Of a stretch of DNA of 64,000 nucleotides, positions 1,738 through 62,280 are shown piece after piece. The DNA is taken from contig NC_080422.1 in the NCBI RefSeq assembly GCF_029873635.1, forward strand, positions 1,716,001 to 1,780,000, written 5' to 3'. Source of the stretch: Malania oleifera (lineage: Eukaryota; Streptophyta; Magnoliopsida; Santalales; Ximeniaceae). Within the stretch, counting starts at the first letter, position 1. Every line of letters begins with the position of its first letter. The notes beneath the pieces were generated by a model. That model was given only the letters and a program-made list of their open reading frames with translations, had not been told where the DNA came from and searched no databases. The translations under genes and the position numbers were made by a program.

Positions 1738-1930
1738 TTCGTCGACGAAGCCAAAGTTCGTCGATGAAGGCCTTGTATTTCTTGTTGATGAAGTTCAGAG
1801 GCTCGTTAACGAGGAGAAGCCGAGAGATTTTGGGAAACCGAGAATCTCAGACTCGTCGGTGAGGTCACCGTTTCGTCGACAAGTTGTCTATATGACCTTG
1901 TCGACGAGGACACCATTTTGTCGATGAGGA
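1738..1930. promoter_or_regulatory. TCGTCGACGA palindrome array, E1 5' LTR
   Basis: Copies of the self-complementary 10-mer TCGTCGACGA, or versions one or two bases away, start near 1739, 1758, 1778, 1802, 1852, 1872, 1897 and 1917, spaced 20-50 bp. The array stops about 20 bp before TATAAAT. The same arrangement recurs in E1 3' LTR (10852-11045), S1, S2, E2, S4, E3, E4 and E5. The function is unknown; a dimeric DNA-binding protein site is one possibility. Confidence 0.6.
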
Positions 1931-1989
1931 TGGCCGAGTCAAAGGGCTATAAATATCCTTTCTCTTTACTTCCAGGCTAAGAAAACTAG

Positions 1990-1991
<2 letters not shown>

Positions 1992-2048
<57 letters not shown>
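1992..2048 (+). repeat. CT microsatellite in E1 5' LTR
   Basis: An almost pure CT dinucleotide run lies about 40 bp downstream of the LTR TATA box. The matching run in the 3' LTR is longer (11106-11187), so the tract has changed length since insertion. Confidence 0.95.
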
Positions 2049-2049
<1 letters not shown>

Positions 2050-3887: not shown

Positions 3888-4870
3888 ATGGAGCCCAAGG
3901 ATAATGACTTGAGAAGTAGCTTCGAGGAGACTGCGAATGACGAGTCTCCTTCTGTGCCTCGAGGTTTGACGAGGTAGGTTTTGCAAGAGATCGGGCGGAG
4001 TATGAGGAGACGCGAACGCTCTCTTATTGCAGTGGGGTGCACCATTGAGAGGTTCACACGCATGTATCCTCCGACGTTCTCTGGGGGACATGACCCAATG
4101 ATAGTAGAGGACTGGGTGGAAAAGACTTAGAGGATCTTAGAGGTCCTGCACTGCACGGATAGGCAGCGAGTAATCTATGCTACCTTCCAGCTATCTGGGG
4201 AGGTGGGTTGATGGTGGACTACAGTGAATCTGCTGGAGAAGCAGAGGGGTGGTCCTTAGGAGATGTCATGCAGCCGTTTCAAGGAGGTGTTCTTTGACAG
4301 ATACTTCCCGGCTTCAGTGCGTGATGCGAAGGCGGATGAGTTTTCTGCTATGACTTAGGGGAGTATGACGGTACAGCGGTATGCAGCTCGGTACATAGAG
4401 TTGTCCCGATTTGTGCCGTGTTTGATCTCGAACGAGTATGAGAAGACTTAGAGATTTGAGAAAGGCTTGAGGAAGAATATTCGCAGACTAGTGGGTATGC
4501 TTTAGATCCGCGAGTTCTCGGTGTTGGTGGATAAAGCCAGGGTGATTAAGATCGGTATCTGAGAGGATGAGGTGGATCAGGAATCAAGGAAGAGGACAGT
4601 ACCTTCTGATTCTCTATCAAGATCTCGTCAAGGATCATAGAAGAAGAGGAACAAGGGCTCGGGTTACTGTTAGAATACCGAGCGCCAGAGTTCTTAGGGG
4701 AGCCAGGCCAGTGATCGTTGTACCAGGTGTCTCAAACGACACGAGGGTGAGTGCTAGTCTTTTAAGGGCAACTTCTATAACTATGGTTGGCCAGGCCACA
4801 TGGCTTGCGATTGTCATACTTCGAAGAAAGATATGCCTGCATCTAGTGTGAACCGAGGGAGCAACCAGAT
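3888..4870 (+). pseudogene. E1 gag region
   Basis: The start ATGGAGCCCAAG directly follows an acceptor-like TTTCAG. Gag-family segments resembling the better preserved copy in E3 follow, including VEDWVEKT, then a zinc-knuckle region near 4715-4830 (CTRCLKRHEGEC followed by a second knuckle-like stretch). It supplied the capsid and nucleocapsid of the particle. Fossil, broken in several places. Confidence 0.75.
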
Positions 4871-4899
4871 ACCTCGGGGAACCATTCAGGCGAATACTG

Positions 4900-6534
4900 C
4901 TCCGACCAGAGTATACTCTCTTACTTCAGCGGATGCTGAACATGTAGGGAACATAGTGACAGGTACCTTATTATTGCTTTTGAATAAAGCTTCTGTTTTG
5001 TTTGATTTGGGTGCGACCCATTTTTTTGTATCTATGAGTTTTGTTAAACTGTGTGGGGTTGAGACCCAAATCATGAACGAGGTACTGTTTGTTACTATAC
5101 CATCTAGGAGTATATCATTTTATAGGAAAATGTTAGAAGACTGCCCAGTGGTAATTCAGGGGAAGCTGCTACCGGCGAACCTGGTAGTATACGACATGTC
5201 AGGGTTCGATGTCATTCTGAGGATGGATTGGTTGTTCTCCAGTTATGCTGTGATTGACTGTCGGAGGAAGGTAGTAGTTTTCAGACCTCTTAGGAAGCAG
5301 GAGTATGAGTTTGTAGGTTCATGTGTGCGTTCGACACCACAGGTTCTGTCAGCATTGTAGGTGAGGAGGTTACTCTTAGACGGTTGTCAGGGGTACCTAG
5401 CTTGTGTAAAGGAACCGTCGCGGGATGAGTTGAGACTTGAGGACATTCAGGTAGTCAGTGAGTTCCCGGATGTGTTTCCAGATGATTTACCAGGTTTATC
5501 TCCGGATCGTGAGGTGGAGTTTGCAATAGAATTGCTACCTGGTAAGGCGCTAATCTATAAAGCTCCATACTGGATGGCTTTAACAGAACTTCAAGAGTTG
5601 AAGGAGCAGTTGCAGGAATTACTGGACAGGGGATTCATTCGACCTATTGTTTCGCCCTAGGGAGCTCCAGTATTGTTTGTGAAGAAGAAGGATGGGTCGA
5701 TGTGGATGTGCATTGATTACCGTGAGATTAATAAGGTAACTGTGAAGAATCGTTATCCTTTACCTCGTATAGATTATCTCTTTGACCAGTTGCAGGGGAC
5801 GCGGGTCTTTTCAAAGATCAACTTGCGGTTAGGATATCATCAGGTGAGGATCAGATCTGAGGATGTTGCGAAGACAGCTTTTCGAACCAGATATGGCCAT
5901 TACGAGTTCTCAGTCATGCCTTTTGGGTTGGCGAATGCTCTGGTAGTATTTATGGATCTTATGAACAAGGTTTTCCATGAGTACTTGGCTCGGTTCGTGG
6001 TGGTATTCATTGACAATATTTTGGTATACTCGAGGAGTACGAAAGAGCATAAGGACCATCTGAGGTTGGTATTACAAATTTTGTGGGAGAAGAAGTTGTT
6101 TTCTAAACTGAAGAAGTATGAATTCTAGTTGGATCAGGTGGCATTCTTAGGCCATGTGGTGACTGGTGATGGTATCTCAGTTGATCCTAGCAAGATCGAA
6201 GCTGTGGTCGACTGGGTTAGGCCGAAGAATGTGCAAGAATTTTGGAGTTTTCTAGGACTAGCAGGTTACTATCGTCAATTCATGGAAGGTTTCTCTAAAT
6301 TGTCTGGGCCTTTGACTCGATTGACCAAGAAGGGAGTGTGGTTTGAATGGACCAGTGATTGCAAGCAGTGCTTTCAAAAGTTGAAGCACCGGCTGGTTAC
6401 TGCTTTGGTTTTGACCATTTCTTCAAGGGATGGTGGGTTTGTGATTTATAGCGATGTGTCTCTGAAAGGTCTGGGATATGTGCTTATGCAGCAGGGGTAA
6501 GGTAGTAGTGTATGCTTCTCGACAACTGAAAGAT
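4900..6534 (+). pseudogene. E1 protease, reverse transcriptase and start of RNase H
   Basis: The aspartic-protease region is recognisable around 4990-5260 (SVLFDLGATHFF, then VVYDMSGFDVIL). The reverse-transcriptase region spans about 5430-6260, with [20 protein letters not shown] and the polymerase core near 6010. The connection and RNase H start about 6290-6534 ([20 protein letters not shown], then a [12 protein letters not shown]-type segment). The region stops at solo LTR S1 and resumes at 8709. Fossil with several breaks. Confidence 0.85.
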
Positions 6535-8703
6535 TGTGACAACCCGAATAATAATGGAATTTAAATAATAAAGAGAGAGGGAAATAGAAATAGAAATAGA
6601 AATAGAAGGAGGCTGTAGACTGTGTCGACGAACGCGGACGTGTTCATCGACGACATTGCATTTCAGAAGGAAAGACAAAAAGGGGAGTTTCAGGGCTTCG
6701 TCAACGAATCCCCTGTATTCGTTGATGAAGGCTTAAGAAAATTCGTCGACGAAGACTGAATTTCATCGACAAAGAAATTCCGAGAGGGGTTCTGGAGCCG
6801 ATTGAATTTTGTCTACGAAATTAGTGAGAATTCGTCAACGAAGGTCGGCTCATCGACGAATTCCACCGTCTATAAATATGAAAAATCCGATTTTTAACTT
6901 TCAAAGGAAGCCAACTCTTCTCCCTCTCTCTCCTCTTCGGCTCTCTTCCTCTCCCTCTTCGATTTTGGCCCCACCAGTCCCCAGATCGAAGATCTGAGGC
7001 TACCATGACGCTCCTAGCGATGTTCCCTACAAGTTTGCCGGAGCGGATCGTTGGGAAAACGAAGTTGGAAATCATCCCTGGGTTGAGGTAAGGCTTTTTA
7101 AGCCAAATTTGGTCTTGTGGTAGTTATAGAAATTGATGTACGCATGAAAATACTGATGTTTAATACTGAGAGTTTTGAGTTTCAGGGTATTGATCAGGAA
7201 GTCATACGGGGGTTAGGCTAGAATATTCTAAGGGCTTTCTCAGTAGTCAGGTAAGGGAATAAACTAAAGCAGTTATTTTTCACGCAATTTATTATTAATT
7301 ATGAGTAAATTTATTTTCAGAAAAGCAAATGTTATACTGGTATATTATAGATGAAATGTACGTTTGGGAGATACTGCTATTATGATGAAACATATATGTA
7401 TGTATAAGTTGCCAGAGAATTACGATTTTAGAATAAGAAGTACGATTTTATACAGTGCACGTGTGGCATGAATATTATTTTATGTGAACATATTATGATA
7501 TGAAAGATTTTATGAACAAAGTTTGATTTCAGAATATATGTTATGAAAAGATATGTTATGTTACGATCATTTTGACGAATATATAATGAATGAATTATTT
7601 TCAGAATATATATATACCTAAAACAATGTTGGTGCGAGGCCATGTATTTTATGTTATCGACACAAGGCCGTATTTATGTTTTGGCGCGAGGCCATATTTA
7701 TGTTATCGGCACGAGGCCGTATTTACATTATCGGCACAAGGCCGTACTTACGTTTTTGGCGCTAGGCCATGTATTTATGATTTCGGCACGAGGTCATATT
7801 TATGTTTCGGCATGAGGCCGTGATGATGTTATGTATGTTCATGTATTATATGTTAATACAACCAGGATGTAAGTCTAGTTTAGTTCAGGGCTCAGTACCG
7901 TAGCTATATGTGTAGATCAAATATCTACGTCAGATTAGTGCTAACCATCCCATGAGGGGATGGGAGATGGATAGTCGATGTGGCTTTCAATAGAGTGTGG
8001 ACGTCCACCTAGCAATTCGGACCAGAGTGTGGCGGGCTCATCGTACTTACAGACATATTTGATTCGACAGTGGTCGGCCAGCCATTGTCGGGTCCCACCT
8101 TCAGGTTGCACAACCCGTCATGGGGGTAATACATGACACCAGCTAGCTATTCATCCTAAGTATATTTTTAGTATTACAGTTATAACAGATGCTTATGTAT
8201 GACATCCTTTATTAACAAATATGAAAGTACATGATTATCCAGTATGATATTATGATTATTTCCAGAGTTATGAAATGTACTGTATATGTATAAGCACTTT
8301 AAATGTTCATGTTGCCACACAGTTGTATTTAGTTTATTTTCTCTTACTGAGAAGTGTCTCACCCCCAACATTAAATGATTTTTCAGGAAACCCAGAGAAA
8401 CCGGCGAGTCAAGGCCGCCGTTGAGTGAGTGGAGCTTCCCTACTAGAAGGGTAAGCGTTGAACTAGGATTAGGAAATTTTTGTTGTATGGTCCCAGTGTT
8501 GTTTTTGACTTTTGGAAATTGTACATATAAATAGTATATTAATGATGTAGTAAACTCTGGTATTATGTTTTATGATTGGATGTTGAGATTTTATGTTTAC
8601 TGCTGCTAGATTTTCCGCTGTGTTTGACAGATATCCCCGTTACCCTCAAGTTCGGGTTGACCATTTTTATTTATTATGTTATATTTTATTGAGGGTTGTT
8701 ACA
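6535..8703 (+). mobile_element. S1: gypsy solo LTR inside E1 RNase H
   Basis: A 2.17-kb solo LTR runs from TGTGACAACCCG to TTGTTACA, flanked by AAGAT (6530-6534) and AAAAT (8704-8708), a 5-bp duplication with one difference. E1 RNase H homology continues on both sides. Parts: TCGTCGACGA-like array (6624-6860), TATAAAT at 6871, CT-rich leader, two GTAAG donor-like sites (near 7088 and 7252), a tandem array of about 25-bp units (7631-7822), the conserved block CTTACTGAGA...TCTCACCCC (8343-8364), and an acceptor-like TTTTCAG ending at 8386. It is younger than E1. Confidence 0.88.
7631..7822 (+). repeat. Tandem array of ~25-bp GGCACGAGGCCG units
   Basis: Seven or eight degenerate copies of a 24-28-bp unit with consensus around TCGGCACGAGGCCGTATTTA lie head to tail inside solo LTR S1. 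Local open frames here arise from the repeat and are not treated as genes. Confidence 0.85.
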
Positions 8704-8708
8704 AAAAT

Positions 8709-10515
8709 TGTGAGAAGAATTACCCTATGCATGATCTGGAGTTGGCTTCCGTTGTATATACACTGAAGATCTTGCAACACTATCTATATGGTGTGCAGTG
8801 TGAGATCTTCACTGACCACAAAAGTCTCAGGTATTTCTTCACGCAGAAGGAGTTGAATATAAGACAGATACGGTGGCTTGAGTTGATCAAGGACTAAGAT
8901 TGCACTATCAGTTATCACCCGGGAAGAGCTAATGTGGTAGCCAATGCATTGAGTCCGAAGTCAGAACCTACGGTTGTATCTGTAGTTGTAGCTCAGCGTC
9001 ACATCAGACAGGATCTGGAGAGCTCAGGTATAGAGTTGGTGTGTGGTGATCATCAGGCTTTCCTTGCTAGTTTGGTGGTCCAGCCGACTTTGTTTGAGCG
9101 TATAAAGGTCACGCAAGCTAGTGATGCGAAGTTGACAGAGGTTATAGAAAAGGTACAACAGGGACTGACTACAGAGTTTAACATCTCTGAGGGAGGTGTA
9201 TTGAGGTTTGGGATCAGGCTATGTGTTCCGAACGAGGATGAGATCAGAAGGACAATTCTGGAGAAAGCGCATTGTTCCTTGTATACGGTACATCCTGGTA
9301 GTACAAAGATGTATCGTGATTTGCACGAGACCTTCTGGTGGTCTGGTATGAAGAGGCAGATTGTTCAGTTCATGGAGTAGTGTCTGACGTGTCAGCAGGT
9401 GAAAGCTGAACATTAGAGGCTGGTAGGGCCGTTGCAGCCTTTGCCTATTCCAATGTGGAAATTGGAGCATATTTCCATGGATTTTGTGACCAGATTGCCA
9501 CTAGCACTTCACGGGCAAAATGCTATCTAGGTGATCGTGAATAGATTGACGAAATCTGCTTATTTCATATTGATGAAGGTTAGCTATCCTTTGAGTAGGC
9601 TAGCATTTATGTATGTGCATGATATTGTTAGAATGCATGGGGTACTGGTGTCCATCGTGTCAAATCGAGACCCAAGGTTTACTTCTCGATTCTGGACAAG
9701 CTTGCAGGAGGCACTGGGGACGAAGCTTACTTTCAGTACAGCATTCCACCCCCAGACTGATAGACAGTCAGAGAGGACGATACAGATCTTGGAAGATATG
9801 TTGCGAGCTTGTGTGTTAGACTTTGGTGGTAGCTGGATCCAGTTTATGCCACTAGTAGAGTTCGCTTATAATAACAGCTTCCAATCTAGTATCGGGATGG
9901 CACCGTTCGAGGCTTTGTATTGTCGGAGGTGTTGATCTCCTATATGTTAGGATGAGGTTGTTGAACATTAAGTGTTAGGACCTGAACTTGTGCATCAAGC
10001 ATCTAAGAAAGTGGGTTTAATCCGGGAAAGGATTAAATCAGCTTAGAGTCGGCAGAAGAGTTACACAAATGTTCACCGCCGTGAGTTAGAGTTCGAGGTG
10101 GAGGGTAAGGTATTTCTACGTATCGCTCCGATGAAAGGGGTAATGAGATTTGGGAGGAAGGGCAAACTGAGCCTGAGGTACATCGGACCATTCGAGGTTA
10201 TTGAGCGAGTGGGTCCGGTAGCCTACAGGATTGCACTACCCCCAGCACTCTCGAGGGTCCACAATGTGTTTCACGTATCCATGTTGAGAAGGTACGTGTT
10301 GGATCCATCACATGTTATCAGTTATGATGAGTTGGAAATTGGGGATACTTTAGCGTATGAGGAGATACCTGTTCAGGCTCTGGACCATAAAGTTCATAAG
10401 CTTTGTACTAAAGAGATACCGTTAGCGAAGGTATTGTGACGAAACCACGAGGTTGAGGAAGCTTCTTGGGAACTAGAAATGGAAATACATCGAAAGTATC
10501 CACAGTTGTTTTGAG
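8709..10515 (+). pseudogene. E1 RNase H remainder, integrase and chromodomain-like tail
   Basis: After S1 the RNase H region resumes ([28 protein letters not shown]). The integrase follows: zinc-binding N-terminal part about 9200-9420 (CSLYTVHPGSTKMYRDLH), and catalytic core about 9480-9935 (STAFHPQTDRQSERTIQIL, LVEFAYNNSFQSSIG). The C-terminal part at 10098-10515 carries [20 protein letters not shown] and [13 protein letters not shown], then a chromodomain-like end (EEASWELEMEIHRKYPQLF). Chromodomain tails are known to direct chromoviruses to heterochromatin. Fossil with several breaks. Confidence 0.85.
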
Positions 10516-10780: not shown

Positions 10781-11104
10781 TGTAAGAACCTGAACCGTGA
10801 TATATGGGTTTAAATAATTAAGAGAGGGGTAAAATTGGAATTTGAATAAGCTTCGTCAACGAAGTTAGAGTTCATCGACGAAGGCTTTGTATTTCTTGTC
10901 GATAAAGTTCAGAGGCTTGTCGACGAGGAGAAGCCGACAGAGTTTAGGAAAGTGAGAATCTCAGACTCGTTGACAAGGTCACCGTTTCATCGACGAGCTG
11001 TCTACATGACCTCGTCGATGAGTACACCATTTCATCGACGAGGACGGCCGAGTCAAAGGGCTATAAATATCCTTTCTCTTTACTTCCATGCTAAGAAAAC
11101 TAGA

Positions 11105-11190
<86 letters not shown>

Positions 11191-13360: not shown

Positions 13361-15781
13361 TGTAACGCCCCGAACCTTTAAACCCGGGTTCGGTGTGTTA
13401 TACTTGATAAAATCCTGATAATCCATAATTCAATACATACGCAGCGGAAAACATAAACATAATCTCCATAAACATAGTTCTACAATACCAACATTCCATA
13501 ATACCAGAGTTTGTTATATCCTAACTAGAAATCCATAAAATTTATCCATCACCTGAATTTCCACATATACATATCCCCTAAAACATTGCAGTATTTTCAC
13601 AATTATTCATCCCTCAACATCTTTAAAACATAACAACATAAAACATAAACATATACATCCCCAAAATATGCTCAACATATACCTTTTCTTTTATAGTCCT
13701 AAAAAATGTTAAAATACCCTCGAGCTCCTAAGCCTGACTTCCTAAAAAAGAAACATTCATATTCGGATGAGACACATCTCAGTAAGAGAAGAAACATACA
13801 TATTAAAACAGCGTGTGGCCAACATGAGGTAAATAGATATCATTTTAATTACATTTGCAAATCATTACGTAACATTGAAATCGTATTCTGAACCCACACA
13901 ATCACATGCAAATATTTAATCCACGAGATTACCCAAGGATAACGGCGATTACCCGCCCATACAAGTAGCAACCCTCTACTCTGATACTTAGGCAACCCTA
14001 AGGTCACAACTAAAGCATACCAGGGCACTTACCTTACTCAGTAAGCCCTCAAGTGTTAGATTAATCTCGTACTCACACAGTTCAACAATAGCTTACCGGC
14101 AAAGGCCCTAAGGATAGGGAAATTTACCCGCCCATACAAATAGGTTCCCTTTGCCCTAGTACGTTATGCAGCTACTGCCACATCTGAAGCTACTAGTGCA
14201 CTTACCTTTCTTAGCAAGTTCTCAGGAGAAGAGTACACCTCGCCCAATCGTAACATGTTCCACGTACATACATACATCTAATATCATAATTCGTTACTCT
14301 TTCTATCATTATTCAATCATTCACATCCATTCATGTTCATAGGTTAACATTGCATTGCATTTCACTTTAAGTGACTCTTTCCCATTTGTATCGTTCACGT
14401 TTCACATTTCATTTCATTGCATTCTCATTCCATTGTCATTTCATTGCATAACATTTTCATTTAATTCCTTTGTACTATAGCTGGTCTTTAGCCATCATCA
14501 GTTAGTCCATATAGAAATGCGCTAGAATCTGCTAATAGTTAGTCCACATAAAAATGCACTAGAATCTTCTAACAGTTAGTCCACATAGAAATGCGCTAGA
14601 ATCTTCTAATAGTTAGTCAACATATAAATGCGCTAGAATCTGCTAACATGGCTGTCTTTCAGCTATTTACATTTGCATGGTTACATTTAACATACACAAG
14701 CAACATTGTCCATATCATACTTTATTCTCAATACTTTACTTATTTAGCCTGCATCTCATACATTTAACATATATTTGGACAAAATCTCATGCCACACAAT
14801 TTAACAATAAAATTCATATGCATTCCTTACAAAATAAGCCAACTCATAATTAACATTTATACGATGTAAATACATTTCATTTCTTATTTAATTCCTTAGA
14901 AAATTCCTTTCACTTTCATCCGTTTAGTTTCACATATACATAATTATATCGACAATCCTAGGCTCAAAAAACATAAATTTCATGGCTGGCATTTTAAACC
15001 CATATAAAAACATATATACATAAATAACACATAATCCTTTTTAATTTATAAAAACCTGATTTAATACATAAATTTCCTCCTTACCTGACTTTCAAATTAT
15101 GCTAGCAGGATCCCCGAACCGATACCCACAATGTTTACTTGGACCTTGAATCCAAAAATCCTATTTAATTAAATAAATTTCAATTAACTCAATTCTTAAG
15201 AAAAACACCTATTTACTACTTCTTAGGCTCCAAATAACATTATGCCTTAATAAAATCCCAAAATAACTTACTTACCATACTTTTGGGATGTTTTCCAAAC
15301 CTCTCAATCCAACGATCAGCTCCTACAGCTTTGCAGAGAACGATCCTACGAACCTCGTAGTGGTTCCAAATTGTCAAATCGGGTGGAAACTGGCCCAAAA
15401 TCGAAGAGAGAAGGTAGGAAAACCATTTTTAGAGAGAGAGAGTGAAGAAGGTTCGTGAATTATGCTGGAAAATGAAGAACGGCCTATTTATAGACAAGGC
15501 TTCGTCGACGAGGCACTGTAGAGACTTCGTCAACGAGAAGATACCTTCGTCGCCGAAATTCAGAGCTTCAAAATATACTCTCTCAAGATTCCTTCGTCGA
15601 CGAGAAACTAGATTCGTCGACGAGCTTCAGAAGGACACTCGTCGATGAGGACAGGACATTCGTCGACGAGGCCTGTTGTTCCTCTTCTAATTTCTTTCCC
15701 TTTTCCTTATTACCCATTAATCCATTTCATTTATTGTATTTCCTAATTATTTTAATCATTTTAATTTTTTGGGTCTTTACA
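13361..15781 (-). mobile_element. S2: gypsy solo LTR inside copia LTR C1
   Basis: A 2.42-kb LTR in minus orientation: its start is the complement of GGGTCTTTACA (15771-15781) and its end the complement of TGTAACGCCCCG (13361). The flanks are AGTTT (13356-13360) and GGTTT (15782-15786), one difference. Copia LTR sequence continues across the gap (GACGTAGGCTA, then GGCTGAACCTCG). It holds a TCGTCGACGA-like array (15500-15670), TATAAAT on the minus strand at 15486-15492, the conserved hairpin block (13765-13787), an acceptor-like site (13742) and a 37-bp tandem array (14501-14647). It is related to S3, which lacks the palindrome array. Confidence 0.88.
14501..14647 (-). repeat. Tandem array, four ~37-bp units
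   Basis: Four head-to-tail copies of a unit around GTTAGTCCACATAGAAATGC plus GCTAGAATCTGCTAA, inside S2. Two related units in opposite orientation occur in S3 near 22045-22140, so the array belongs to this LTR family and differs in copy number between members. Confidence 0.85.
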
Positions 15782-18462: not shown

Positions 18463-18517
<55 letters not shown>

Positions 18518-18859
18518 CCGCTGGTTCTAGAGAGAGAGGGAGAGCTTTTGGGAGAAACTTAGCCCTTAAGCAACCAAAATGGATATTTATAGGGCCCTTG
18601 ACCGAGTCCAACTCATCGACGAGGTGGCTCATCGATACAGCTCGACAACGAAGCCATTCCTTCGTCAACAAACCTCATTCGGATATTTTCTCTGACCCGC
18701 TCGGTATTTCCTTGTTGACGACGCTCTGAATTTCGTCGACGAGGCTCTAAAGGGACTTTGTCGACGAACTTGCTGCCCTTGTTGACAAACCCTGCTGTAT
18801 AACTCCCCTTTATTCTATTTCTTATGTATTTTCCTTATTTACAGGTTCGAGTCTCAACA
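16715..18859 (-). repeat. E2 3' LTR
   Basis: 2.1-kb LTR. On the minus strand: palindrome array 18795-18600, TATAAAT at 18591-18585, CT run (GA on plus strand) 18512-18455, GTAAGG donor-like site near 18328, conserved block 17129-17106, and acceptor-like TTTTCAG ending at about 17085. The plus-strand polypyrimidine stretch TCTCCCCTCCTT after 18859 is the polypurine tract of the element. Confidence 0.88.
18455..18512. repeat. GA microsatellite in E2 3' LTR
   Basis: GA run on the plus strand, CT in the sense of the LTR, about 70 bp downstream of its TATA box. The counterpart in the 5' LTR is at 28281-28324 and is shorter. Confidence 0.95.
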
Positions 18860-20932: not shown

Positions 20933-20964
<32 letters not shown>

Positions 20965-23269: not shown

Positions 23270-23274
23270 TCGGC

Positions 23275-25125: not shown

Positions 25126-25199
25126 CCTAGCCTAGGTTGTACCCCTTTACTGACCACCATGTTGTGCTTGAGCATTTCCCCTGTATGGTTGCTGCGAGG

Positions 25200-26537: not shown

Positions 26538-26540
26538 ACT

Positions 26541-28328: not shown

Positions 28329-28657
28329 CTTATGGGAGAAACTTAGCCTTTAAGCAACCAAAATGGATATTTATAAGGTCCTTGATCGAGTCAAACCCGT
28401 TAACAAGGCGGCGTCTTTGTCGACGAGCCAGCCAAACAGCTCATCGACGAAGTCATTCCTTCGTCGATGAACCTCATTCGGATAGTTTCTCTAACTCGCT
28501 CGGTATTTCCTCATTGACGACGCTCTGAATTTTGTTGACGAGGCATTGAAGGGACTTCGTTGACGAACTTGCTGCCTCGTCAACGAACCCTATTGTATAA
28601 CTCCCCTTTATTCTGTTTCTTACGTATTTTTCTTATATACGAGTTTGGGTCTCTACA
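26541..28657 (-). repeat. E2 5' LTR
   Basis: 2.1-kb LTR matching 16715-18859 throughout. Palindrome array 28600-28385; TATAAAT on the minus strand at 28375-28369; CT tract (GA on plus) 28324-28281; conserved hairpin block near 26957-26934. It ends beside the CCCAT duplication. Confidence 0.9.
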
Positions 28658-28662
28658 CCCAT

Positions 28663-51917: not shown

Positions 51918-54900
51918 TGATGCCCAAATGCTCCAAATCAAAATTCTAATCCGAAAATATTGTAGAGAATCTTCCCATGAGTAATGTGGCGGCTTCCGAT
52001 CATCAAATCGGTGAGAATCGAAATCGAAAATCTAGAGAGAAGTTAGAAAAACTAAGCTAAAGAGAGAAAATGTGAAAAAAAAATTAACTTTTCCTCGCTG
52101 AATCCCGATTTTGGCCTATATATAGAGTGTTGTCTACGTGGCCTCGTCGACGAGACACGTGGGCTCGTCGACAAACCTAAGAAGGAAGTTCATCAACGAA
52201 GGCTATGAGTTTGTCGACGAGCCCGCATATCCTCAAACCTGCTCTCAGTTTCTCTTTGTCGGCGAGACACGTGTCCTCGTCGACGTTCCCAAGAAAGCCA
52301 CTCTTTAATAAATATTCTGCGTTTGTCAACAAGACCCTGTTGAGCCCCCTTAGAAAAAAAAATTTTCTTTCTTTTCCTTTATTATTTAATTGCTATAATT
52401 CTCTGGGTCTCTACATTCTCCCTTCCTTAAAAAAATTTTGTCCTCGAAATTTGCTATCCATACTATACATCATCCTCTGAGGAAAAATTTGCTACTTATC
52501 TTACTAACTACCCTCACTTATGGCGGAGTAATACCATGGTTACATATACGGTTCTGAGAGATTACAAATAACAGAACAAAATTCTCCCATAACCAACTAA
52601 AATAGAAACTAATACATGTATTGAGTAACCTACAAAAGAAATGTTACTTAGTTACCTGATTTTTCCTGAATACTAATGGTCCTCACTGAATAGGTGCAGG
52701 TATTTCTATCGTATTTGCTCCTCGAGCTCCCATGAAGCTTCTTCCACTGTGTGATTCCTCCACAGGACTTTTACTAATGGAATGTTCTTACTGCACAATT
52801 CCTATTCTTTTCTATCCAGAATCTGCACTAGTGTTTCCTTATATGCCAAAGTATTACTAAGTTCTATCAATACATAGTTGATCACGTGGGGGAGGGGGGA
52901 TCTTCTTAACATGGAAATATGAAATACATCGTGTATTATGGATAAAGTTGGTGGTAAAGCTAACTAATAGGCAACTGACCCCACTCTCTCAAGTATCTTA
53001 AATGGGCTAATAAACCTAGGGCTCAACTTACCTTTCCTTTTAAACTTCATAGCTCCTTTTAGCGGTACTATTTTCAAAAACACATGATCTCCTCTATCAA
53101 ACTCCAATTTCGATGGCGAGTATTAGTGTAACTTTTATGCCGATTATGAGTTGCACTAATTCTATCTTTGATAAGTGGGACTTTATCATATGCCTGCTGC
53201 ACTAACTCTGGTCCCAAAACTCGCCTCTTACCCATCTCATCCTAGTATAATGGAGAATGACACCTCCTACCATATAAAGCCTCATAAGGTGTCATGTCGA
53301 TGCTAGCCTGATAGCTGTTATTATACGCAAACTCAACTAGTGGCATATATTGGGTCCAACTACCCCCGAAGTCTAGCACACATGCACGTAGCATATCCTC
53401 AAGGATATGGATCGTCCTCTTTGTCTGCCCATCAATCTAAGGATGAAATGTCGTGCTAAATGATAATTGAGACCCCAGAGGCTCTTGCAAGCTCTTCCAA
53501 AACCGTGACGTGAAACATGAGTCTCGGTCTGATACTATAGACACTAGCACACCATATGATCGTATTATCTCTTGAATATATAATTCTACCAGCCTGTCCA
53601 AGGAGTAATTGACTTTGATAGGGATAAAGTGGGCAGTCTTTGTCAACTGGTCAACAATCACCCAAAAGACATTTTGTCCACATGGCGCCAATGGTAATCC
53701 TATGAAGAAATCAATGGATATATAGTCCCACTTCCACTTAAGAATATGGAGTGGCTGCAACTGTCCTATCAGCCTCTGGTGCTCAGCCTTCACCTACTGG
53801 CACGTCAAACAATGCTCCACGAATTCGGCTACCTCCCTCTTCATGCCGCTCCACCAAAATGATTCTCGAAGATCGTGATACATTTTAGTGCTGCCAGGAT
53901 GTACTGTGTATAGGGATCTGTGAGCTTCCTCTAGGATCGTTCTTCTGATATCCACATCTGCAAGCACGCACAACCTAATATGGAACCTCAGAGTTCCGTC
54001 ATCTAAAATACTAAATTCCTCTCCCTATCCATCCTACACTTTAGCTATCAACTCCACTAATTCTGCACCATCCCTCTGAGCAGCTTTAATCCTCTCCTGT
54101 AGAGTAGGCTATACCACTAAGTTGGAAATAAAGGCTTGAGGATCACTCTCTACTAGCTCCACATCAAGCCTCTCCAAGTCCATCTGGATCAGGTGCTAAA
54201 TTACTGCTGTTAACTGTGCTGTTCCCCTTGATTTTTGGCTCAGAGCATCAGCTACCACATTTTCCTTCCCTGGGTGGTAATTGATAGTACAATCGTAATC
54301 CTTAATAAGTTCCAACCATCACCTCTGCTTCATATTCAATTCCTTCTAAATGAAGAAGTACTTTAAAATTTTATGGTCTGAAAATATTTCACATCTCTCT
54401 TCGTACAAATAATGCCTCCAAATTTTCAATACATGAACCACTGTAGCCAATTCTAGATCATAGGTAGGATAATTCTTTTCATATTCTTTCAATTGTCTGA
54501 AGGCATGCGCTATAACTCTGCCTTGTTGCATCAATACACATCCGAGCCCTTTCGAGGATGCATCACTGTAGATCACATAACCATCACCTCTTGATCGAAT
54601 GGTCAATACAGGTGCAGTAACGAGCCTCTGCTTCAATTCCTAGAAGCTCTGCTCACAAATGCCATTCCATTCAAACCTAACATTCTTCCTGGTTAGTGGC
54701 TTCAAAGGCCTTAACAATCCTGAGAATCCCTCTACAAACCGACGGTAATATCCCGCCAGTCCCAAGAAACTTCTAATTTCTTGAATGTTCCTCAGCCTAA
54801 CCCAATTCACCACTGCCTTTATCTTCCTAGGATCTACTGAGATTCCATCTCCTGATATAACATGCCCCAATAACGTAACTTTCTCTAACTAGAATTCACA

Positions 54901-55025: not shown

Positions 55026-57339
55026 TGTAACGACCCAAAAAATTTTGACTATTTAAAATAATAAGAAAGATAATAAAAGGGAAAAAAAAAAAAGAAAAAT
55101 AGGAGAAAAGGGAAAAGAAATTGGAAAAGGAAATAAGCAGGCACTCGTCAACGGGTTGAATTTTCTCGTCGATGAGTAGTCTTCAAAGCCTCGTCATCAA
55201 GTATGCATGTCTCGTCGATGAGAGTTTATCGAGAGAGGGTTTTGAATACCTGAATTTTGTCGACGAGCTTTCGGGCTCGTCCACGAGTGGTGTTCTTAGG
55301 TTCGTCGACGAGTCTAGACGTCTCGTGGACGAGGCCACGTGACAAGTTGCTTATAAATAGGAAAAATCAGATTTCAGTGAAGGAAATTTGTTTCTTTTCA
55401 CTTTCTCTCTCTAAGCCACGACTCCTCTGCCTTCTTTCTTCGATTTTGGGCCGGATTTAGTTCGGTTCAACGATCGGAAGCTACGACGAGACTCCTGGGA
55501 AGATTCTCTCCATCATAGGCGGAGCGGATTTTCGATTTGAGAAGTTTAGGAAACATCCTAAAACTAGGGTAAGTGAAATAATTTAAGGTATTAATATTAT
55601 TTTGCTGTATTTGGAGCTTAGGAAGTATTATAAGGGTGTTTTACTAAGATTTGAGGAATTTAGAATTTTTGGAATATAGGGTCTTGTTTTGTCGATTTTA
55701 GGCAAGAATTCTGAGGAGCAGGTAAGGGGAAATATTTTATAATAGCTTTTAAATAATTTTAAAAGACTAATTTCGTGTATAATTTCTACATATTCAGATA
55801 TAGTTTTTCTGAAACATGCTAGTATTGAAAATATTGATTTTATATATATTATATGGGGGGAAATCGGGTGGTTGAAACCATTCTTGTTAATTAAATGATT
55901 GTGAGCATTGTGGAAAGTTGAATCACTGAGATTGCCAATAGTGTTTGGCTGTGATTTCTACCTGGTTGATTTTGCTGGTTAATTTCAGATACTGGACGAT
56001 TATGTATACTGTGGTAATTGTGTGGATGTGATTGATTAGTCAGGTTGTTTATTGATTTGTGTTGTGGTTCATGTAAACTATGATATAATGTTGACAGTGG
56101 TATAAGGAGGTCGTTATATCGTACTTGGTATAACCGTCATATAACATTGGCAGTGGTATGAGGAGGTCATTATATGAGCGTTTATATTGGGAGGTAAACA
56201 TTGGCAGTGGTATGAGGAGGTTGTTTACCTATTTACCATGAACAGAGTGTTTGTTTTGTAACCTATGTGGTTTGATTAGTCCTGGATGGACCAGTCATGT
56301 GTGGATATATATGCTGTGTGATTGATTAGTCCTGTGTGGACATATATGTTGTGTGATTGATTTGTCCTTTGTGGACCAATCCTATATGGACAAGTATGTT
56401 GTAACTGATAGTCCTGTGTGGACGTGTATGATGTGTGTGTTAGTAGTCCTGTGTGGACGATTACATGTTGCGTGGATCTAGTATGATTGAAGACTGTATG
56501 TTTATCTTGTGTGGATTGATTGTGATATGTTTATATGTGTGGAGTTCTCTGAAACGAATATGGTTGTCTACATGTGACCTTAATTAATTAGGTATCTTGG
56601 GTAAAGTAGATTACTCCACCCGAGGGCTTGCTGAGGAAGGCGAGTACTCTAATAATCGTTTGTGGACACCAGAGTAGAGGGAAGCCACATGTATGGGCGG
56701 GTGACTTTCCCTATTCTCGGTAACTTTACCTGGATACATAACCCAAGAGCTTACTAAGGAAGGTGAGTGCTTTGGTGTTAGCACTAGAGTAGAGGGAATC
56801 TAGTTGTATGGTTGGGTAAACTTCCCTATTCTCGGGAATTATGAGTAAAATATAAATGAATGTGGGCACGTGATTGGATATTAAATACATTGATCATGGT
56901 GTGATTATGAGCGTGCTATTTTGGCTACTAGTGGATTGTGAACAGTTGTATGGATATTTTAATTATATATTAAACACTTCAGCCACACAATGTTATAAAC
57001 TATTTCTTCCTTACTGAGAGGTGTCTCACCCCGTCGTTGATTAAATCTTTTCAGGTTATCCAAGCAATTGAGCTTAGATAGCTCCAGGGCGGGGTAGTTT
57101 TGTGAGTGATACCCGAACGGTTATGTTTTAATTTTTATGTTTTATATATTTTATTCAAGTTTCTGTAATATAAAGAATGTGGTTGTAATTATTATGGATT
57201 TGTGTGTGTAAATATAGAACTCTAGTATATTATGTTTGAGGTTATTTTTATTATTTTCGTTACATGAATGGTATAAGAGACGCGTGTTGGTCTCATAGCT
57301 CTCTGGGCCCTACATACATGGCCGGTCCGGGGTGTTACA
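55026..57339 (+). repeat. E5 5' LTR
   Basis: 2.3-kb LTR, TGTAACGACCC to GGGGTGTTACA. Palindrome array 55144-55335; TATAAAT at 55352; donor-like GTAAG sites near 55569 and 55722; three copies of a GGCAGTGGTATGAGGAGGT-type unit (56092-56222); a run of GTCCTGTGTGGAC-type units (56278-56460); the GAGGGCTTGCTGAGGAAGG block (56621); conserved CTTACTGAGAGGTGTCTCA from about 57010; acceptor-like TTTTCAG ending at 57054. Confidence 0.88.
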
Positions 57340-57341
57340 GT

Positions 57342-57353
57342 TGGTATCAGAGC
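57342..57353 (+). other. E5 primer-binding site (tRNA-Met type)
   Basis: Exact TGGTATCAGAGC, 2 nt after the 5' LTR. Confidence 0.9.
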
Positions 57354-57726
57354 ATAACGGTCTAGTGGACTTTAGGAGGATTAATACCTGAGCATAGGTT
57401 TGAGTTGAATAAGGGTAGGAATGGGTAGATTAGGGTGATGACAAGAGTTGAGTTTGTTTTTTAGCTTGGAGGCAAAGATCCCTTGATGGACTTTTGTGAT
57501 TTTCTAAATCAGTCGACGGTTTCAAAAAACCACGGTAAATCCATCGACGGTGATGTTTCCTAGTAGAGGAACTGAAATTTGGAATTTAGATTTGAAGGTT
57601 AATATGATTGTAGATTAGATACTAATGGCGGATATGGATATTGAAATAATTATCTATTATATGATTATGTCAGATATAATAAGATGTAGAGATTCTAAAT
57701 TGCCTCTGTTGTATATTTATATTTAG

Positions 57727-58480
57727 GGATGGATCCTAGAGGCAAAGGCGTGGATGAAGGAGGAGGAAGTGAAATGGGATCTTCCAGCGGGGATGAGATT
57801 GACACCTCTCGACTGTTACAAGGAATAGCTCATCAGGTTAGGGAAGAAATGAGACGGGATTTTGGGGGAACAAGCTATCCACTGGTGCACCAAGGTTGCA
57901 CCATTAATCAATTTACTCATCTGAAACCCTCATCTTTTGAGGGTGGCACTGATCCGATTAAGGCTGAGATGTGGATGCAAGAAATGGAGAAAATACTTGT
58001 TGTGTTGAATTGTACTGAGGAGCAGAAGGTTCTCTTCGCCACCTTCAAATTGGCTGGAGAAGCTAAATGGTGGTGGCATGCAATGAAACTATTGGAGCAG
58101 TGAGCGGTACCTATAGCGATGACCTAGGGTCACTTCAAGCAGGTCTTCTACGACCGATATTTTTCTGCCACCACCAGAAATGCGAAGACGGGGGAATTTT
58201 TTAGCTTGGCTCAGGGACGCCTCACTATTCAGCAATATGCTACTAAATTTCTAGAGCTATCTCGTTTTGCACCTTCTGTGGTTGCAGATGAATATCAGAA
58301 GGCAACGTGGTTTGAAAGGGGTCCGAATCAGAGGATTCACGAGCATATGACATGTTTGTAGATTCAGGATTTCACATAACTGGTGGAGAAAGCTATTGTT
58401 GTAGAGTCAAGTCTACAGAGAGGTATAAAAGCATCAGAACGAATAGGTGATTAGCTTTTTGATTGTAGGAATAGGTGATT
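57727..58480 (+). pseudogene. E5 gag region
   Basis: The ATG lies 2 nt after an acceptor-like TTTAG. The best preserved stretch is about 120 residues: [54 protein letters not shown]. Later Gag segments follow to about 58430. The closest relative in the window is the E2 gag. No zinc knuckle or protease follows before the polypurine tract. Fossil, a few breaks. Confidence 0.8.
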
Positions 58481-58520
58481 AACAAATTTTGAAGATGAAA
58501 TTCTTTTAAGGAGGGGAGAA

Positions 58521-60389
58521 TGTAACGGCCCGGAAAATTTTGACTATTTAAAATAATAAGAAAGATAATAAAAGGTAAAAAAAAAAAAAGGAAAATAGGA
58601 GAAAAAGGAAAAGAAATTAGAAAAGGAAATAAGCAAGCGCCTCGTCGACGGGTTGAATTTTCTCATCAACGAGCAGTCTTCAAAGCCTCGTCGTCGAATA
58701 TGCATATCTCGTACGCGAGGGTTTACCAAGAGAGGGTTTTGAATACCTAAATTTCATCGACGAGCTCCCGTTCTTGTCCATAAGTGGTGTTCTCAGGCTC
58801 GTCGACGAGTCCAGACGTCTCGTCGATGAGGCCACGTGGCAAGTTGCTTATAAATAGGTAAAAATCATATTTCAGCGGAGGAAATTTGTTTCTCTTCACT
58901 TTCTCTCTCTAAGCCGTGACTCCTCTGCCTTCTCTCTTCGATTCCGAGCCGAATTTAGCTCGGTTCGATGATCGGAAGCTACCATGAGACTTCTGGGAAG
59001 ATTCTCTACATTATAAGCAGAGCGGATTTTCGATTTGAGAAATTTGGGAAACATCCCAAAATCAGGGTAAGTGAAATAATTTAAGGTATTATTATTATTA
59101 TTTTGAGGTATTTGGAGCCTAGGAAGTATTATAAGGGTGTTTTACTAAGATTTGAGGAATTTGAAATTTTTGGAATGCAGGGTCTCGTTTTGTCGATTTT
59201 AGGTAGGAATTCAGAGGATTGGGTAAGGGGAAATATTTTATAATAGCTTTTTAATAATTTTAAACGACTAATTTCGTGTATAATTTCTACATATTCAGAT
59301 ATAGTTTTTCTGAAACATGCTAGTATTGAAAATATTGATTTTAAATATATTATATGGGGAAAAATCATGTGGTTGAAACCATTCTTGTTAATTAAATGAT
59401 TGTGGGCATTATGGAAAGTTGAATCATTAAGATTGCGAATAATGTTTGGGTGTGATTTTTGCCTGGTTGATTTTGCTGGTTAATTTCAGATACTGGACGA
59501 TTGTGTATACTGTGGTAATTGTGTGGATGTGATTGATTGGTCAGGTTGGTTATTGATTTGTGTTGTGGTTTATGCAAATTACAATATAACATTGACATTG
59601 GTATGAGGAGGTCGTTATATTGTACCTAGTATATCCATCATATAACGTTGGCAGTGGTATGAGGAGGTCATTATATGAGCTTTTATATTGGGAGGTAAAC
59701 ATTGGCAGTGGTATAAGGAGGTTGTTTACCTATTTACCATGAACGGAGTGTTTGTTTTGTAACTAGTGTGGTTTGATTAGTCTTGCGTGGACCAGTCTTG
59801 TGTGGACATATATGTTGTGTGATTGATTAGTCATGTGTGGACATATATGCAGTGTGATTGGTTTGTCCGTTGTGGACCAGTCCTGTGTGAACAGGTATGT
59901 TGTAACTGATAGTCCTTTGTGGACGTGTATGATGTGTGGGTTAGTAGTCCTATATGGACGATTACATGTTGTGTGGATCTAGACCCTATGTGGATATGAT
60001 TGAAGACTATATGTCTATCATGTGTGGATTGATTGTGATAGGTTTATATGTGTGGAGTTCTGTGAAACGAATATGGTTGGTTGCATATGACTTTAATTAA
60101 TTAGGTATCTTGGGTAAAGTAGATTACTTCACATGAGGGCTTGCTGAGGAAGGTGAGTACTTTGGTAATCATTTGTGGATAGCAGAGTAGAGGGAAGTCA
60201 CTTGTATGGGCGGGTGACCTTCTCTATTCTCAGTGACTTTACCTGGATACATAACCCGAGGGCTTACTAAGGAAGGTGAGTGCCTTGGTGTTAGCACTAG
60301 AGCAGAGGGAATCTACTTGTATGGGCGGGTAGACGTCTCTATTCTCTGGAATTATGAGCAAAATATAAATGAATGTAGGCATGTGATTA
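58521..60389 (+). repeat. E5 3' LTR (to the copia insertion)
   Basis: Matches 55026 onward closely: TGTAACGGCCCGG start, palindrome array 58637-58835, TATAAAT at 58849, repeat units at 59590-59720 and 59780-59960. It stops at 60389, where copia element C3 begins (probable target site GATTA, 60385-60389). The remainder, with the conserved splice-like block, should lie right of the window. Confidence 0.88.
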
Positions 60390-62280
60390 TGTTGACTCTA
60401 CGAGTCCAATCTTATTTTGATAATGACAAATCACTTGATATTTGATCTGTGCATTAAGTTTGTGAACAGGACTTACACTAAGTATGCACGGAAAGTTAAC
60501 AAATCTTGGCAAAGATCCATGGAACTCAAAGAGTACGGGAATCAAAATACAAGCGGCAAAGTTCAAGAATATCTTAGGAAAGGGTATTTAGAACTCATGT
60601 ATTAACATTTTCATATGATTAAATTTGAGGCTCATTATAACTTAGAATGGTTTTAGGATTCATGCATTTCATGTACATCATTAGGAAACTCTCATGGACA
60701 TTGAAATGTTTTCAAAATCATGAAAATTATATTTTATGAAAGACCCAAGAAAAGAAGCCAAGCAGATTTTGTAGTTAGAAATGAAAATTTGAGAGAATGG
60801 GGAGTTTGGTCGCCTGAACTCAAACCTCAGTAACCTGAAGAATTTCTTCAGTTGCCTGAAGATTAAGTTCAGTCGCCTGAAGAATTAAATGGAGAAGACA
60901 GAACCTGGTCGAGGCTCTTCGGTCGCCTGACCTTGGGACCTCAGGCGCCTAAAGTTGATACTTCAGGAGCCTGAAGTCGAGTTTAGTTGCCTGAACTCGC
61001 GGGAAAGCCTAAAAATCAGTTCTTTATTAAAAAGACACGCGAAGTATCTTATTGATCCAATGGCTGAGATTAATTCTAAGGGTAATATAATATATATTAT
61101 GAATATCTAAACCCTAGAGACAAGCGAAGAGATACAACAAGAAAGATATACATCTCATTGCAAGATTTGAACCCTAGAGCCAGTTTTCTGCACTTCAATC
61201 TTCTTCCATCTTCGTTTGGGAAAATCTCTACTGAATTCAAAAGGGCACTCATTCATCCAACTAAACTTTGATCCAGTATTAAGGTTCGATCTGTCAAGTT
61301 ATTATTTTTCAAGAACCTATCATCTCTTTACGTGTTTATCGTTAGAAAGAGGTTTTGATCTTGAGTGTGTATTCACATATAAAAACTGATTTTCGAGAAG
61401 ATCATGTTTTAAGAAAAACTTATTAGCTTGGTTGATTGATTTGAAATTCAAGAAGTACATAAACACATATTCATATATATTGTTCATTGGGTTTCTTATT
61501 GAAAAACCTACTTTGATTAAAATATTGGAACTTGAAGGAAAACTTTGTGATTTTTTATTGAGTTGTATTCAAGTCAAATTCTTGTTAAATAGCTCACTTT
61601 AAATATACTTGAGCATCTTTACAAAGTGAATCAAGTACCCTAGTGGACTCCAAAGCATTCCAAATATATTTTCACTTAGGAGTTTTGATTAAATACAAAT
61701 TTGTGTGTTGACACATATCATACATCAAACGATTGTATCGTTTTTCATACATTCTTGAGCTTCAAGTTATATCATATGTTAATGTAATAGGAAATTGAAT
61801 TGTACTCACAAGCTTTTGTTAGAAGCATTGTTTTGAGTGTTATTTTCAGATTTCATTGTAAACACGGTTCGATTTGTGAACTGGGTGTGAGAAGGAAGCT
61901 GTACCTCTTGTGAGTAGCGGATAAGGAGGGAGTTGTACCTCTTGTAAGCAGCGGTTCATAAGGGAAGTTCCGTCCCACTTTAAGGAGCAGGGTTTTTTAG
62001 TGAATCCTTGAGTGGTTGCTCAAGGCGAGACGTAGGCCAAGTCGGCTGAACCTCGTAAAATCACATTTGTCTTCTCTCTTCCCTTTACTCTTTATTTTTC
62101 GCGTTATATTTAAATTGAGTATATTGCATGCATAGATAGGATTGCCACACTCACACATAATTGAGCAACTAGAAGTAGTTGGTAAACTTATAAGAAGTGT
62201 GTAAAAGAAAATTAAGTGAATTATTTTTTTAATATCCAATTCATCCCCCCCCCCCCTTTGGGATTACACCTTAATCAACA
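60390..62280 (+). repeat. C3 5' LTR
   Basis: 1.89-kb copia LTR. It shares with C1 and C2 the start block (TTTTGATAATGACAAAT), the block CAAGGCGAGACGTAGGCC (62018), and a C-tract terminal region (CCCCCTTTGGGATTACACC). A C run of about a dozen lies at 62245-62256. I see no clear TATAAAT; an AT-rich TATAATATATATTATG lies near 61088. Confidence 0.88.
60808..61005. promoter_or_regulatory. Palindrome array in U3 of C3
   Basis: About ten copies of CTTCAGTCGCCTGAAG-type motifs, many separated by 15-25 bp. Examples are GGTCGCCTGAAC (60809), CTTCAGTTGCCTGAAG (60847), GTTCAGTCGCCTGAAG (60867) and CTTCAGGAGCCTGAAG (60962). It corresponds in position to the C1 and C2 arrays but differs in sequence. Confidence 0.6.

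Follow-up and report, generated by a model that had tools for sequence, protein, structure and literature searches.

RESULTS

Gypsy elements and box arrays in the window

The window, i.e. the whole 64-kb stretch of DNA analysed here, contains long terminal repeats (LTRs) and element interiors of Ty3/gypsy retrotransposons, and the gypsy domains RVT_1, RNaseH, H2C2 and SH3_Tf2-1 were identified in E1 and E2. The coding remains of E1 (4800..10436, plus strand) follow the gypsy order, namely protease, RT, RNaseH, the inserted S1 LTR, integrase zinc domain and SH3_Tf2-1, with RT before integrase as in the Del/Tekay chromoviruses; its LTRs measure 1.86-1.89 kb and those of E2 2.12-2.15 kb, the ~2-kb length being that of Del/Tekay elements as well. 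No Chromo match was found at the integrase C-terminus in the window ORFs scanned, the reading frames of which are broken. The 1.6-kb interior of E5 retains a weak capsid trace only. A match to a plant CIPK-like kinase was also seen. Searches of the window returned no tRNA, and no structured RNA family at the gathering score.

The window contains 19 exact copies of TCGTCGACGA (0.00 expected from 100 dinucleotide shuffles) and 57 sites with at most one mismatch to it (0.45 expected from dinucleotide shuffles). When two mismatches were allowed, 11 clusters of 7-10 sites each (overlapping sites counted) were obtained, and five more sites stood singly outside them. All 11 clusters lie in the LTRs to which the original prediction had assigned arrays, so that every predicted array is present. 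Counted without overlap, an array has 6-9 boxes, and several have slightly fewer than eight owing to box decay.

Seven non-overlapping boxes (≤2 mismatches) lie on the plus strand of each E1 LTR, at 1739..1927 in the 5′ LTR (1670-3559; TATA-like box TATAAATA at 1948-1955) and at 10853..11041 in the 3′ LTR (10783-12646; TATAAATA at 11062-11069), where an eighth 2-mismatch site stands isolated at 10749. The solo LTR S1, which lies inside E1 between the RNaseH and integrase regions and interrupts the E1 homology at ~6533-8703, has nine boxes (6622..6859, plus strand; TATAAATA at 6871-6878). On the minus strand, seven boxes were found in S2 (15502..15669; TATAAATA at 15485-15492), six in the E2 3′ LTR (18613..18767; LTR 16714-18859; TATA 21 bp on, at 18584-18591), seven in the E2 5′ LTR (28417..28586; LTR 26540-28657), seven in S4 (35722..35908; TATA at 35705-35712) and six in the E4 LTR (52144..52286; TATATATA at 52117-52124); the TATA-proximal box of the E2 5′ LTR has decayed, and its TATA (28368-28375) lies 41 bp past the last detected box. 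The best preserved array of the window, with six exact boxes out of eight, is that of the E3 LTR (43668..43860, plus strand; CATAAATA at 43882-43889), in which an interval at 43745..43784 (plus strand) carrying TACCGAGAG 5-6 bp after a box separates two 4-box blocks. E5 has seven boxes in its 5′ LTR (55145..55332, plus strand; LTR 55026-56875; TATAAATA at 55352-55359) and six in its 3′ LTR (58642..58829, plus strand; LTR 58521-60388; TATAAATA at 58849-58856).

A TATA-like box thus follows within 50 bp of the last detected box in 11/11 window arrays, being CATAAATA or TATATATA in two of them. The predicted order of array and TATA-like box therefore stands, but the distance is 9-41 bp rather than the 20-100 bp claimed. 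No array was found in the S3 LTR (~20.6-23.27 kb), which is related to S2 (77% over 1.78 kb), so the earlier wording that ‘most’ gypsy LTR families carry the array holds, whereas ‘all’ would have been incorrect.

Box, register and interval element

The box is a 12-bp dyad, YTCGTCGACGAR, symmetric in base composition over 179 boxes; every cytosine in it is in CG context, and the CpG-bearing palindrome contains neither CGG nor CCG. Boxes recur in a register of ~21-25-21-(45 to 50)-20-25-21 bp, followed by the TATA, with two 4-box blocks flanking the interval that carries the TACCGAGAG element (statistics over 59 intervals) and with up to 10 boxes in the array LTRs L109 and L137. In 27 arrays from the window and the sample, neighbouring boxes were spaced 19-21 bp (70 times), 24-25 bp (33 times) and 44-50 bp (28 times) apart, and a spacing of 22-23 bp occurred in only 269 of 20,294 exact pairs genome-wide. 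Where boxes are missing, traces tend to remain at the expected offsets of 20, 21, 24 and 25. The boxes of a pair lie 20-21 bp, or some two turns of the helix, from each other, and pairs repeat every 45-46 bp; since 24-25 bp is not a whole number of turns, only pairs are in phase, and helical phasing was rejected as the sole spacing rule. Gaps were about as frequent in the module as downstream of it (3.49 versus 3.74 per 100 bp), so by this measure the register has no more protection from indels than other LTR sequence.

Genome-wide enrichment before the TATA box

Genome-wide counts were made on 1.49 Gb, with the palindrome TCGACGTCGA, identical to the box in dinucleotide content, as control. 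Exact box pairs 15-30 bp apart numbered 20,294, versus 0 for the control. A box followed 5-35 bp on by TATAAATA was counted 18,117 times (9,697 + 8,420), and the reverse order, TATAAATA and then box, 91 times (50 + 41), which bears out the anticipated positional enrichment relative to the TATA. A systematic sample outside the window (20 x 10 kb) gave 31, 43 and 61 sites at 0, 1 and 2 mismatches, versus 0, 1 and 65 for TCGACGTCGA, and yielded 16 arrays. The motif is thus far from equally common in random DNA, and the shuffles together with the dinucleotide-identical control rule out chance or composition as its origin. A TATA-like box was present within 50 bp in 36/52 arrays and absent from that distance in 16/52, a set biased toward box identity as 25 of the 52 came from loci chosen for an exact pair. 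A coding or phage origin was rejected as well, in that the 100 stretches of viral_contigs that hold two exact boxes were unlike the plant arrays (median GC 0.67, at most five boxes per 250 bp and no TATA context).

Conservation between families and decay after insertion

By an 80%/200-bp rule, 50 array LTRs fell into 35 clusters, and 46 of the 50 chain through downstream homology, which makes these, judged by that homology, one Ty3/gypsy radiation. The ‘clearly different families’ of the original prediction are therefore borne out by the clustering, but those in the window are mostly relatives. One LTR, L128, has the array without homologous flanks and without a TATA. Between families (194 pairs), only 87/5,225 non-CpG box positions differed (1.7%), versus 6,015/19,879 spacer positions (30%) and 25,550/98,395 positions of the downstream LTR (26%); 18 disjoint pairs gave 16/464, 556/1,817 and 2,492/8,989, respectively. 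The proposal of a module common to these LTRs, placed without exception on the promoter side, is hence supported, the box being strongly conserved between families and the rest of the LTR not, and the divergence of box versus spacer does not fit one family that inherited one array without constraint. CpG is retained in the boxes (observed/expected 1.57 for the module) and scarce in the spacers (0.47), and in 19/48 array LTRs the boxes produce a 200-bp window with GC >0.5 and observed/expected >0.6.

After insertion, box CpGs decay neutrally. Among the 296 substitutions in 369 boxes (defined at ≤2 mismatches), 251 were C>T or G>A, in agreement with the earlier remark on CpG decay. Its companion, that the array nevertheless persists, fails when taken as protection of single insertions: in the LTR pairs of E1, E2 and E5, 40/117 box CpG columns differed versus 111/382 other CpG columns (Fisher p 0.30). 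Non-CpG box columns of these pairs diverged faster than the others (15/103 versus 357/5,181, p 0.006) and are probably CpGs lost in both copies. Because the box is conserved between families and its CpGs decay normally within LTR pairs, selection seems to maintain the array in active lineages but not to protect it once inserted.

Copia carriers

Box, register and interval element were also found in two Ty1/copia families, both with TACCGAG at offset 5 as in gypsy, and their array LTRs lack downstream homology. An element of the L137 type (C9) has RVT_2 (E 3.4e-60, L148) and Retrotran_gag_2 (5.9e-15, L150) between its LTR pair. The PPT octamer AGGGGGAG occurs three times in the L155 linker (at 661, 1008 and 1060), the last directly before the 3′ LTR and followed by AA (AT being usual) and TG, with the LTR start placed by eye; the PBS TATCAGAGC was not found in the five loci searched, none of which covers the junction at the C9 5′ LTR. 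A second array of six boxes (L148:1447-1566) lies ~435 bp ahead of a post-pol ORF, whose sole match, Transposase_32, is below the cut-off and which from its position would be ENV. This family thus bears what by sequence are Sirevirus marks. In the array of L137 itself, inspection by eye showed a 4-box unit duplicated (112 bp), which means that arrays do grow in this way. The second family, of the L116 type, was assigned to copia through L154, with a gag that may resemble the Tnt1/Tork type; the interiors of two further LTR pairs of this type hold an opposite-strand copia RT (L152) and a DUF659 ORF (L153), presumably nested DNA. A 30-bp box-ACACAGGGCT-box string is identical between copia L137 and gypsy-type L138.

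DISCUSSION

A probable promoter-proximal regulatory module

We favour, at a probability of about 0.6, the reading of the array as a regulatory module that transposons carry close to their promoters, of the same kind as the Sirevirus RM boxes but with a box sequence of its own. Most likely, each 12-bp dyad would bind a dimeric protein, probably encoded by the host rather than by the element, and rows of dyad sites would recruit transcription from the LTR, i.e. activate rather than repress it; in silenced copies, CG methylation may shut the module off.

Alternatively, hairpins of RNA or of a single strand might be the functional form and the boxes might feed small-RNA production. Since all boxes can pair with one another, a transcript would fold into strong stems in its 3′ U3; five module stretches were more stable than their shuffles (z -2.5 to -5.3), although repeated palindromes always fold well and such z-scores are unspecific. 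Bousios et al. are said to have described, in 2016, hotspots of small RNAs at the LTR palindromes of maize Sireviruses. The excerpted texts of PMC5311732 and PMC10760457 do name these palindromes as such hotspots. The outer flanks of boxes 19-22 bp apart covary (MI 0.086, 0/2,000 shuffles, kinship ignored), which is what pairing predicts, but the inner flanks of the same pairs are uncorrelated (p 0.71) and bases inside a single box also correlate (p 0.0005, kinship ignored). As RNA pairing would leave both the TATA link and the all-CG cytosines unexplained, we regard this form as unlikely. Still less probable is a landing pad for silencing, in which the CG-dense array would draw methylation or a repressor and be kept as restrained elements outlive others: box CpGs do turn into TpG or CpA as if methylated, but CpGs elsewhere in these LTRs decay to the same extent, so the boxes are not marked as a special target, and selection for an element's own silencing is hard to sustain over many families.

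A comparably slim chance, argued from analogy, is given to the array being the target of an element-coded anti-silencing protein like VANC of VANDAL elements, where, according to the partial text of PMC10398659, short repeated non-coding motifs serve many copies in trans. No candidate protein was found here, gypsy and copia carriers share no known extra gene, E5 carries the array despite an interior reduced to the capsid trace, and the copia post-pol ORF offers only its sub-threshold match. The homology that links 46/50 array LTRs, the growth of arrays by duplication as in L137, and the insertion of S3, which lost its array or never had one, would suit a functionless product of recombination or slippage carried as passive baggage by one successful lineage; however, non-CpG box divergence between families is more than 10-fold below that of the spacers of the same arrays, which largely refutes this, and copia LTRs without downstream homology have the array too, leaving passive carriage highly improbable.

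Beyond the regulatory module itself, a further step can be put forward tentatively, at slightly less than even odds: one promoter module (boxes and interval element in the recurrent register) may have moved between Ty3/gypsy and Ty1/copia and may now drive a large share of the genome's LTR elements via one common trans-factor, as a cis-regulatory cassette spreading among unrelated transposons. The same register, TACCGAG at offset 5 in both superfamilies and the 30-bp identity of L137 and L138 support such a transfer. If the cassette did move, LTR promoters evolve partly via exchanged regulatory parts; should one factor act on both superfamilies, it would offer a single point of control over much of the plant's mobile DNA. 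We know of no binding factor for LTR palindrome rows; since the box has a sharply defined sequence, occurs in very many copies and is common to gypsy and copia, the factor could be searched for with one short oligonucleotide.

Comparison with known systems

Palindrome rows have been known from LTR promoters since 2010 and were held to be confined to Sireviruses, so the original statement that no described system matches is wrong. As far as the excerpted text of Bousios et al. 2010 (PMC2829016) goes, Sirevirus RM boxes are palindromic, contain CpG and cluster, in about eight or more copies, within the LTR's upstream half, a short way before the TATA; they are conserved while their flanks diverge, and extra copies lie ahead of ENV. 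The same text calls them specific to Sireviruses, states that classic elements lack them, and gives a CGG-CCG signature for all but Tnd-1. None of the open-access titles and abstracts listed described the array box or an RM array common to gypsy and copia.

Other systems share single traits. Maize Sirevirus palindromes also cluster in the cis-region of LTRs, but have another sequence (CACCGGAC...GTCCGGTG) and are described for copia only in the portions available of PMC5311732 and PMC10760457. Del (Tekay) elements are likewise Ty3/gypsy with long LTRs; the partial text of Cruz et al. 2014 (PMC4029996) gives no LTR CpG islands for eudicot Del and a poorly conserved 5′ island, and mentions neither palindromes nor tandem repeats, whereas the CpG-rich windows of our array LTRs come from the boxes. 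VANC targets are also tandem short motifs in non-coding transposon DNA with action in trans (PMC10398659, PMC5735166, in part), but VANDALs are DNA transposons whose targets diverge fast and whose protein is encoded by the element (PMC10398659, in part), unlike the box conserved across families.

The likeness to RM boxes is the closest: clustered CpG palindromes (6-9 copies in the window) that end shortly before the TATA, a conserved box amid diverging flanks and, in the copia element, a second array ahead of the post-pol ORF, all as in the available part of PMC2829016. The Vitis RM given there, CGGTCGACCG, has the GTCGAC core in common with the array box, and 676 exact pairs of it were counted in the genome studied, mostly 21 or 24 bp apart among the matches listed. 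Unlike RM boxes, the array box lacks CGG-CCG, its carriers are mostly Ty3/gypsy, and its copies follow a recurrent register that includes an interval element. Since their carriers are gypsy elements, the window arrays would work like RM boxes but are not classed as members; RM-type arrays in gypsy LTRs, with a different box, are new and widen a feature that the excerpted text of PMC2829016 describes as Sirevirus-specific.

Arrays of a palindromic box recur across the genome

The palindromic 10-mer TCGTCGACGA, hereafter the box, occurred 19 times exactly in the window versus 0.00 in shuffles, and 57 times at ≤1 mismatch versus 0.45. At ≤2 mismatches its sites formed 11 clusters, all lying in the LTRs to which the original prediction had assigned such arrays, with 6–9 non-overlapping boxes in each array; five further sites at this threshold were isolated and fell outside the clusters. 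A systematic genome sample (20 stretches of 10 kb) yielded 31, 43 and 61 box sites at 0, 1 and 2 mismatches, respectively, versus 0, 1 and 65 for the control TCGACGTCGA, likewise a palindrome, with dinucleotides identical to those of the box and the same three CpGs. Sixteen arrays were found in this sample, which roughly extrapolates to ∼10^5 arrays genome-wide. Counting over the whole assembly (1.494 Gb, 510 contigs) gave 20,294 exact box pairs with 5–20 bp between them, and none for either the reversed pattern or the control palindrome.

Boxes follow a common register ahead of TATA

The motif YTCGTCGACGAR was derived from 179 boxes in the 27 window and sample arrays; its T/A positions were 97–98% constant and its C/G positions 79–89%, with changes nearly all to T or A, and the 10-mer was flanked by one pyrimidine and one purine. 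Start-to-start spacings in these arrays fell mainly at 19–21 bp (n = 70), 24–25 bp (n = 33) and 44–50 bp (n = 28), and although a 22–23-bp spacing corresponds to 2 of the 16 permitted gap lengths, only 269 of the 20,294 exact pairs genome-wide had it. Alignment of the 27 modules displayed a plan of boxes at about 0, 21, 46 and 67, a longer interval, boxes at 112, 132, 157 and 178, and then TATA. For boxes spaced 44–46 bp, remnants of a missing box lay mostly at offsets 20, 21, 24 and 25. In the long intervals, TACCGAGAG was detected at ≤2 mismatches in 36 of 59, 34 of them sharing one offset (shuffles, 4.3%).

The side of TATA on which boxes lie is fixed: a box followed 5–35 bp on by TATAAATA was counted 18,117 times genome-wide, versus 6 for the backwards pattern and 91 for TATAAATA preceding the box. 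The arrays considered numbered 52: the 11 of the window, the 16 of the sample and 25 from the first 3 Mb of C1, the last chosen for containing an exact box pair. In 36 of the 52, a TATA-like box followed the final detected box within 50 bp. TATA gave the orientation of 35 arrays and LTR homology that of the other 17; for pairs among the 35 TATA-oriented ones, homology disagreed in 17 of 207.

The dyad is constrained between families

Between families, 194 LTR pairs with <80% downstream identity were compared, taking boxes as detected in one member. Box positions 1, 4, 7 and 10 differed at only 87 of 5,225 sites, versus 1,697 of 7,824 at box CpG positions, 6,015 of 19,879 at spacer non-CpG sites and 25,550 of 98,395 at downstream non-CpG sites. 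The 18 pairs with no member in common gave 16/464, 156/694, 556/1,817 and 2,492/8,989, respectively. The gap rate in the module was not below that elsewhere in this comparison. Within the LTR pairs of elements E1, E2 and E5, box CpG columns differed much as other CpGs did (40/117 versus 111/382, p = 0.30), and non-CpG box columns differed in 15 of 103 versus 357 of 5,181 elsewhere (p = 0.006), an excess that we provisionally attribute to CpGs lost in both copies. The comparisons between families and within LTR pairs are most simply read as selection acting on active elements, with unconstrained decay once activity has ended. The CpG observed/expected ratio of modules was 1.57, compared with 0.81 for downstream sequence and 0.47 for spacers.

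With dyads in phase pairs, a fixed side of and short distance to TATA, and a constrained dyad amid free spacers, the array looks like a series of sites at which a dimeric protein would bind, probably one per dyad. Five module stretches also fold with z of −2.5 to −5.3, as a hairpin or small-RNA role would have it, and correlations between flank bases bear both ways on the hairpin; we consider such a role unlikely beside the protein-site row.

Gypsy and copia elements carry the module

Downstream sequence sufficed for 50 of the 52 arrays, and 46 of these LTRs chained by blastn homology under single linkage; at 80% identity over 200 bp, the 50 fell into 35 clusters. The window carriers possess gypsy domains in gypsy order, and gypsy pol/gag fragments adjoin arrays in the same orientation in eight stretches outside the window (L103, L105, L112, L119, L130, L133, L134 and L143). 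Element E2 (window 16710–28662) is still flanked by an intact target duplication of 5 bp, CCCAT. E5 (55026–60388), with two LTRs around only ∼1.6 kb, a weak Ty3_capsid trace and full arrays, is probably non-autonomous.

Four arrays stood outside the chain: L110_7456 together with L116_9498, L137_899 and L128_1007. The last (L128:1007–1307) is a decayed array of usual spacing, with neither a TATA box nor flank homology to other arrays. The L137 LTR was found at the 40 places scored out of 1,935 candidates, several forming pairs ∼8.4 kb apart; such a pair on C9 has the array in its LTR, followed by copia gag, with copia RT inside and AGGGGGAG three times near the 3′ end. This Sirevirus-like copia element contains a second array (L148:1447–1566, within C9:63749900–63752300) of six boxes spaced 21-24-21-23-21 bp, lying after pol and ahead of a post-pol ORF whose matches to Transposase_32 stay below threshold, and no TATAAATA box follows it. 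For the L116 LTR, 40 of 3,128 candidates were scored; gag and Pol_BBD in L154 assign the type to copia, and the array is present in a further copy, L151, as well. In L153 (C13:6028700–6030700), two L116-type LTRs of the same orientation enclose a DUF659 ORF. Counting the gypsy chain and these two copia types, the module is thus present in one gypsy radiation and two copia families at the least.

Sequence comparison makes it plausible that the module passed between the superfamilies, because copia L137 and gypsy-type L138 match exactly over 30 bp (box-ACACAGGGCT-box), and spacers resembling ACACAGGG occur in excess (31/225 versus 1.4% in shuffles); the gypsy and copia modules may instead have been assembled independently from the same sites.

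The array is not universal among LTRs. The LTR S3 (window 20608–23267), nested in E2 and 77% identical to S2, has no array, its upstream part being AT-rich in that place. None was found with the copia genes of sample stretches L121 and L122, whose LTRs possibly lie beyond the stretch, or near the copia gag at the window end (62327–63789), whose LTR may be partly outside. The window, which spans C6:1716001–1780000, also holds an intron-free CIPK-like kinase ORF (39953–41401) that matches Pkinase and NAF and includes a CAG-rich segment (41270–41392); this gene marks the host as a plant.

Relation to Sirevirus RM boxes

Although the original prediction knew of no described system, arrays of this kind are already known from Sireviruses (Ty1/copia): Bousios et al. 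2010 (PMC2829016) describe palindromic, CpG-rich repeated motifs (RMs) that have a CGG-CCG core and stand upstream of TATA in the LTRs as well as before ENV, and term them Sirevirus-specific. The array ahead of the post-pol ORF in L148 is like the RMs ahead of ENV, and the Vitis RM given there, CGGTCGACCG, has GTCGAC in common with the box. Exact CGGTCGACCG pairs 15–30 bp apart numbered 676 in this genome, with spacings similar to those of the box among the matches listed; it forms a second palindrome type (e.g. C1:48954192–48954273), some places being ∼7 kb apart like LTR pairs. Unlike the Sirevirus RMs as described there, the arrays here have their own box sequence, gypsy carriers and a shared register with an interval element.
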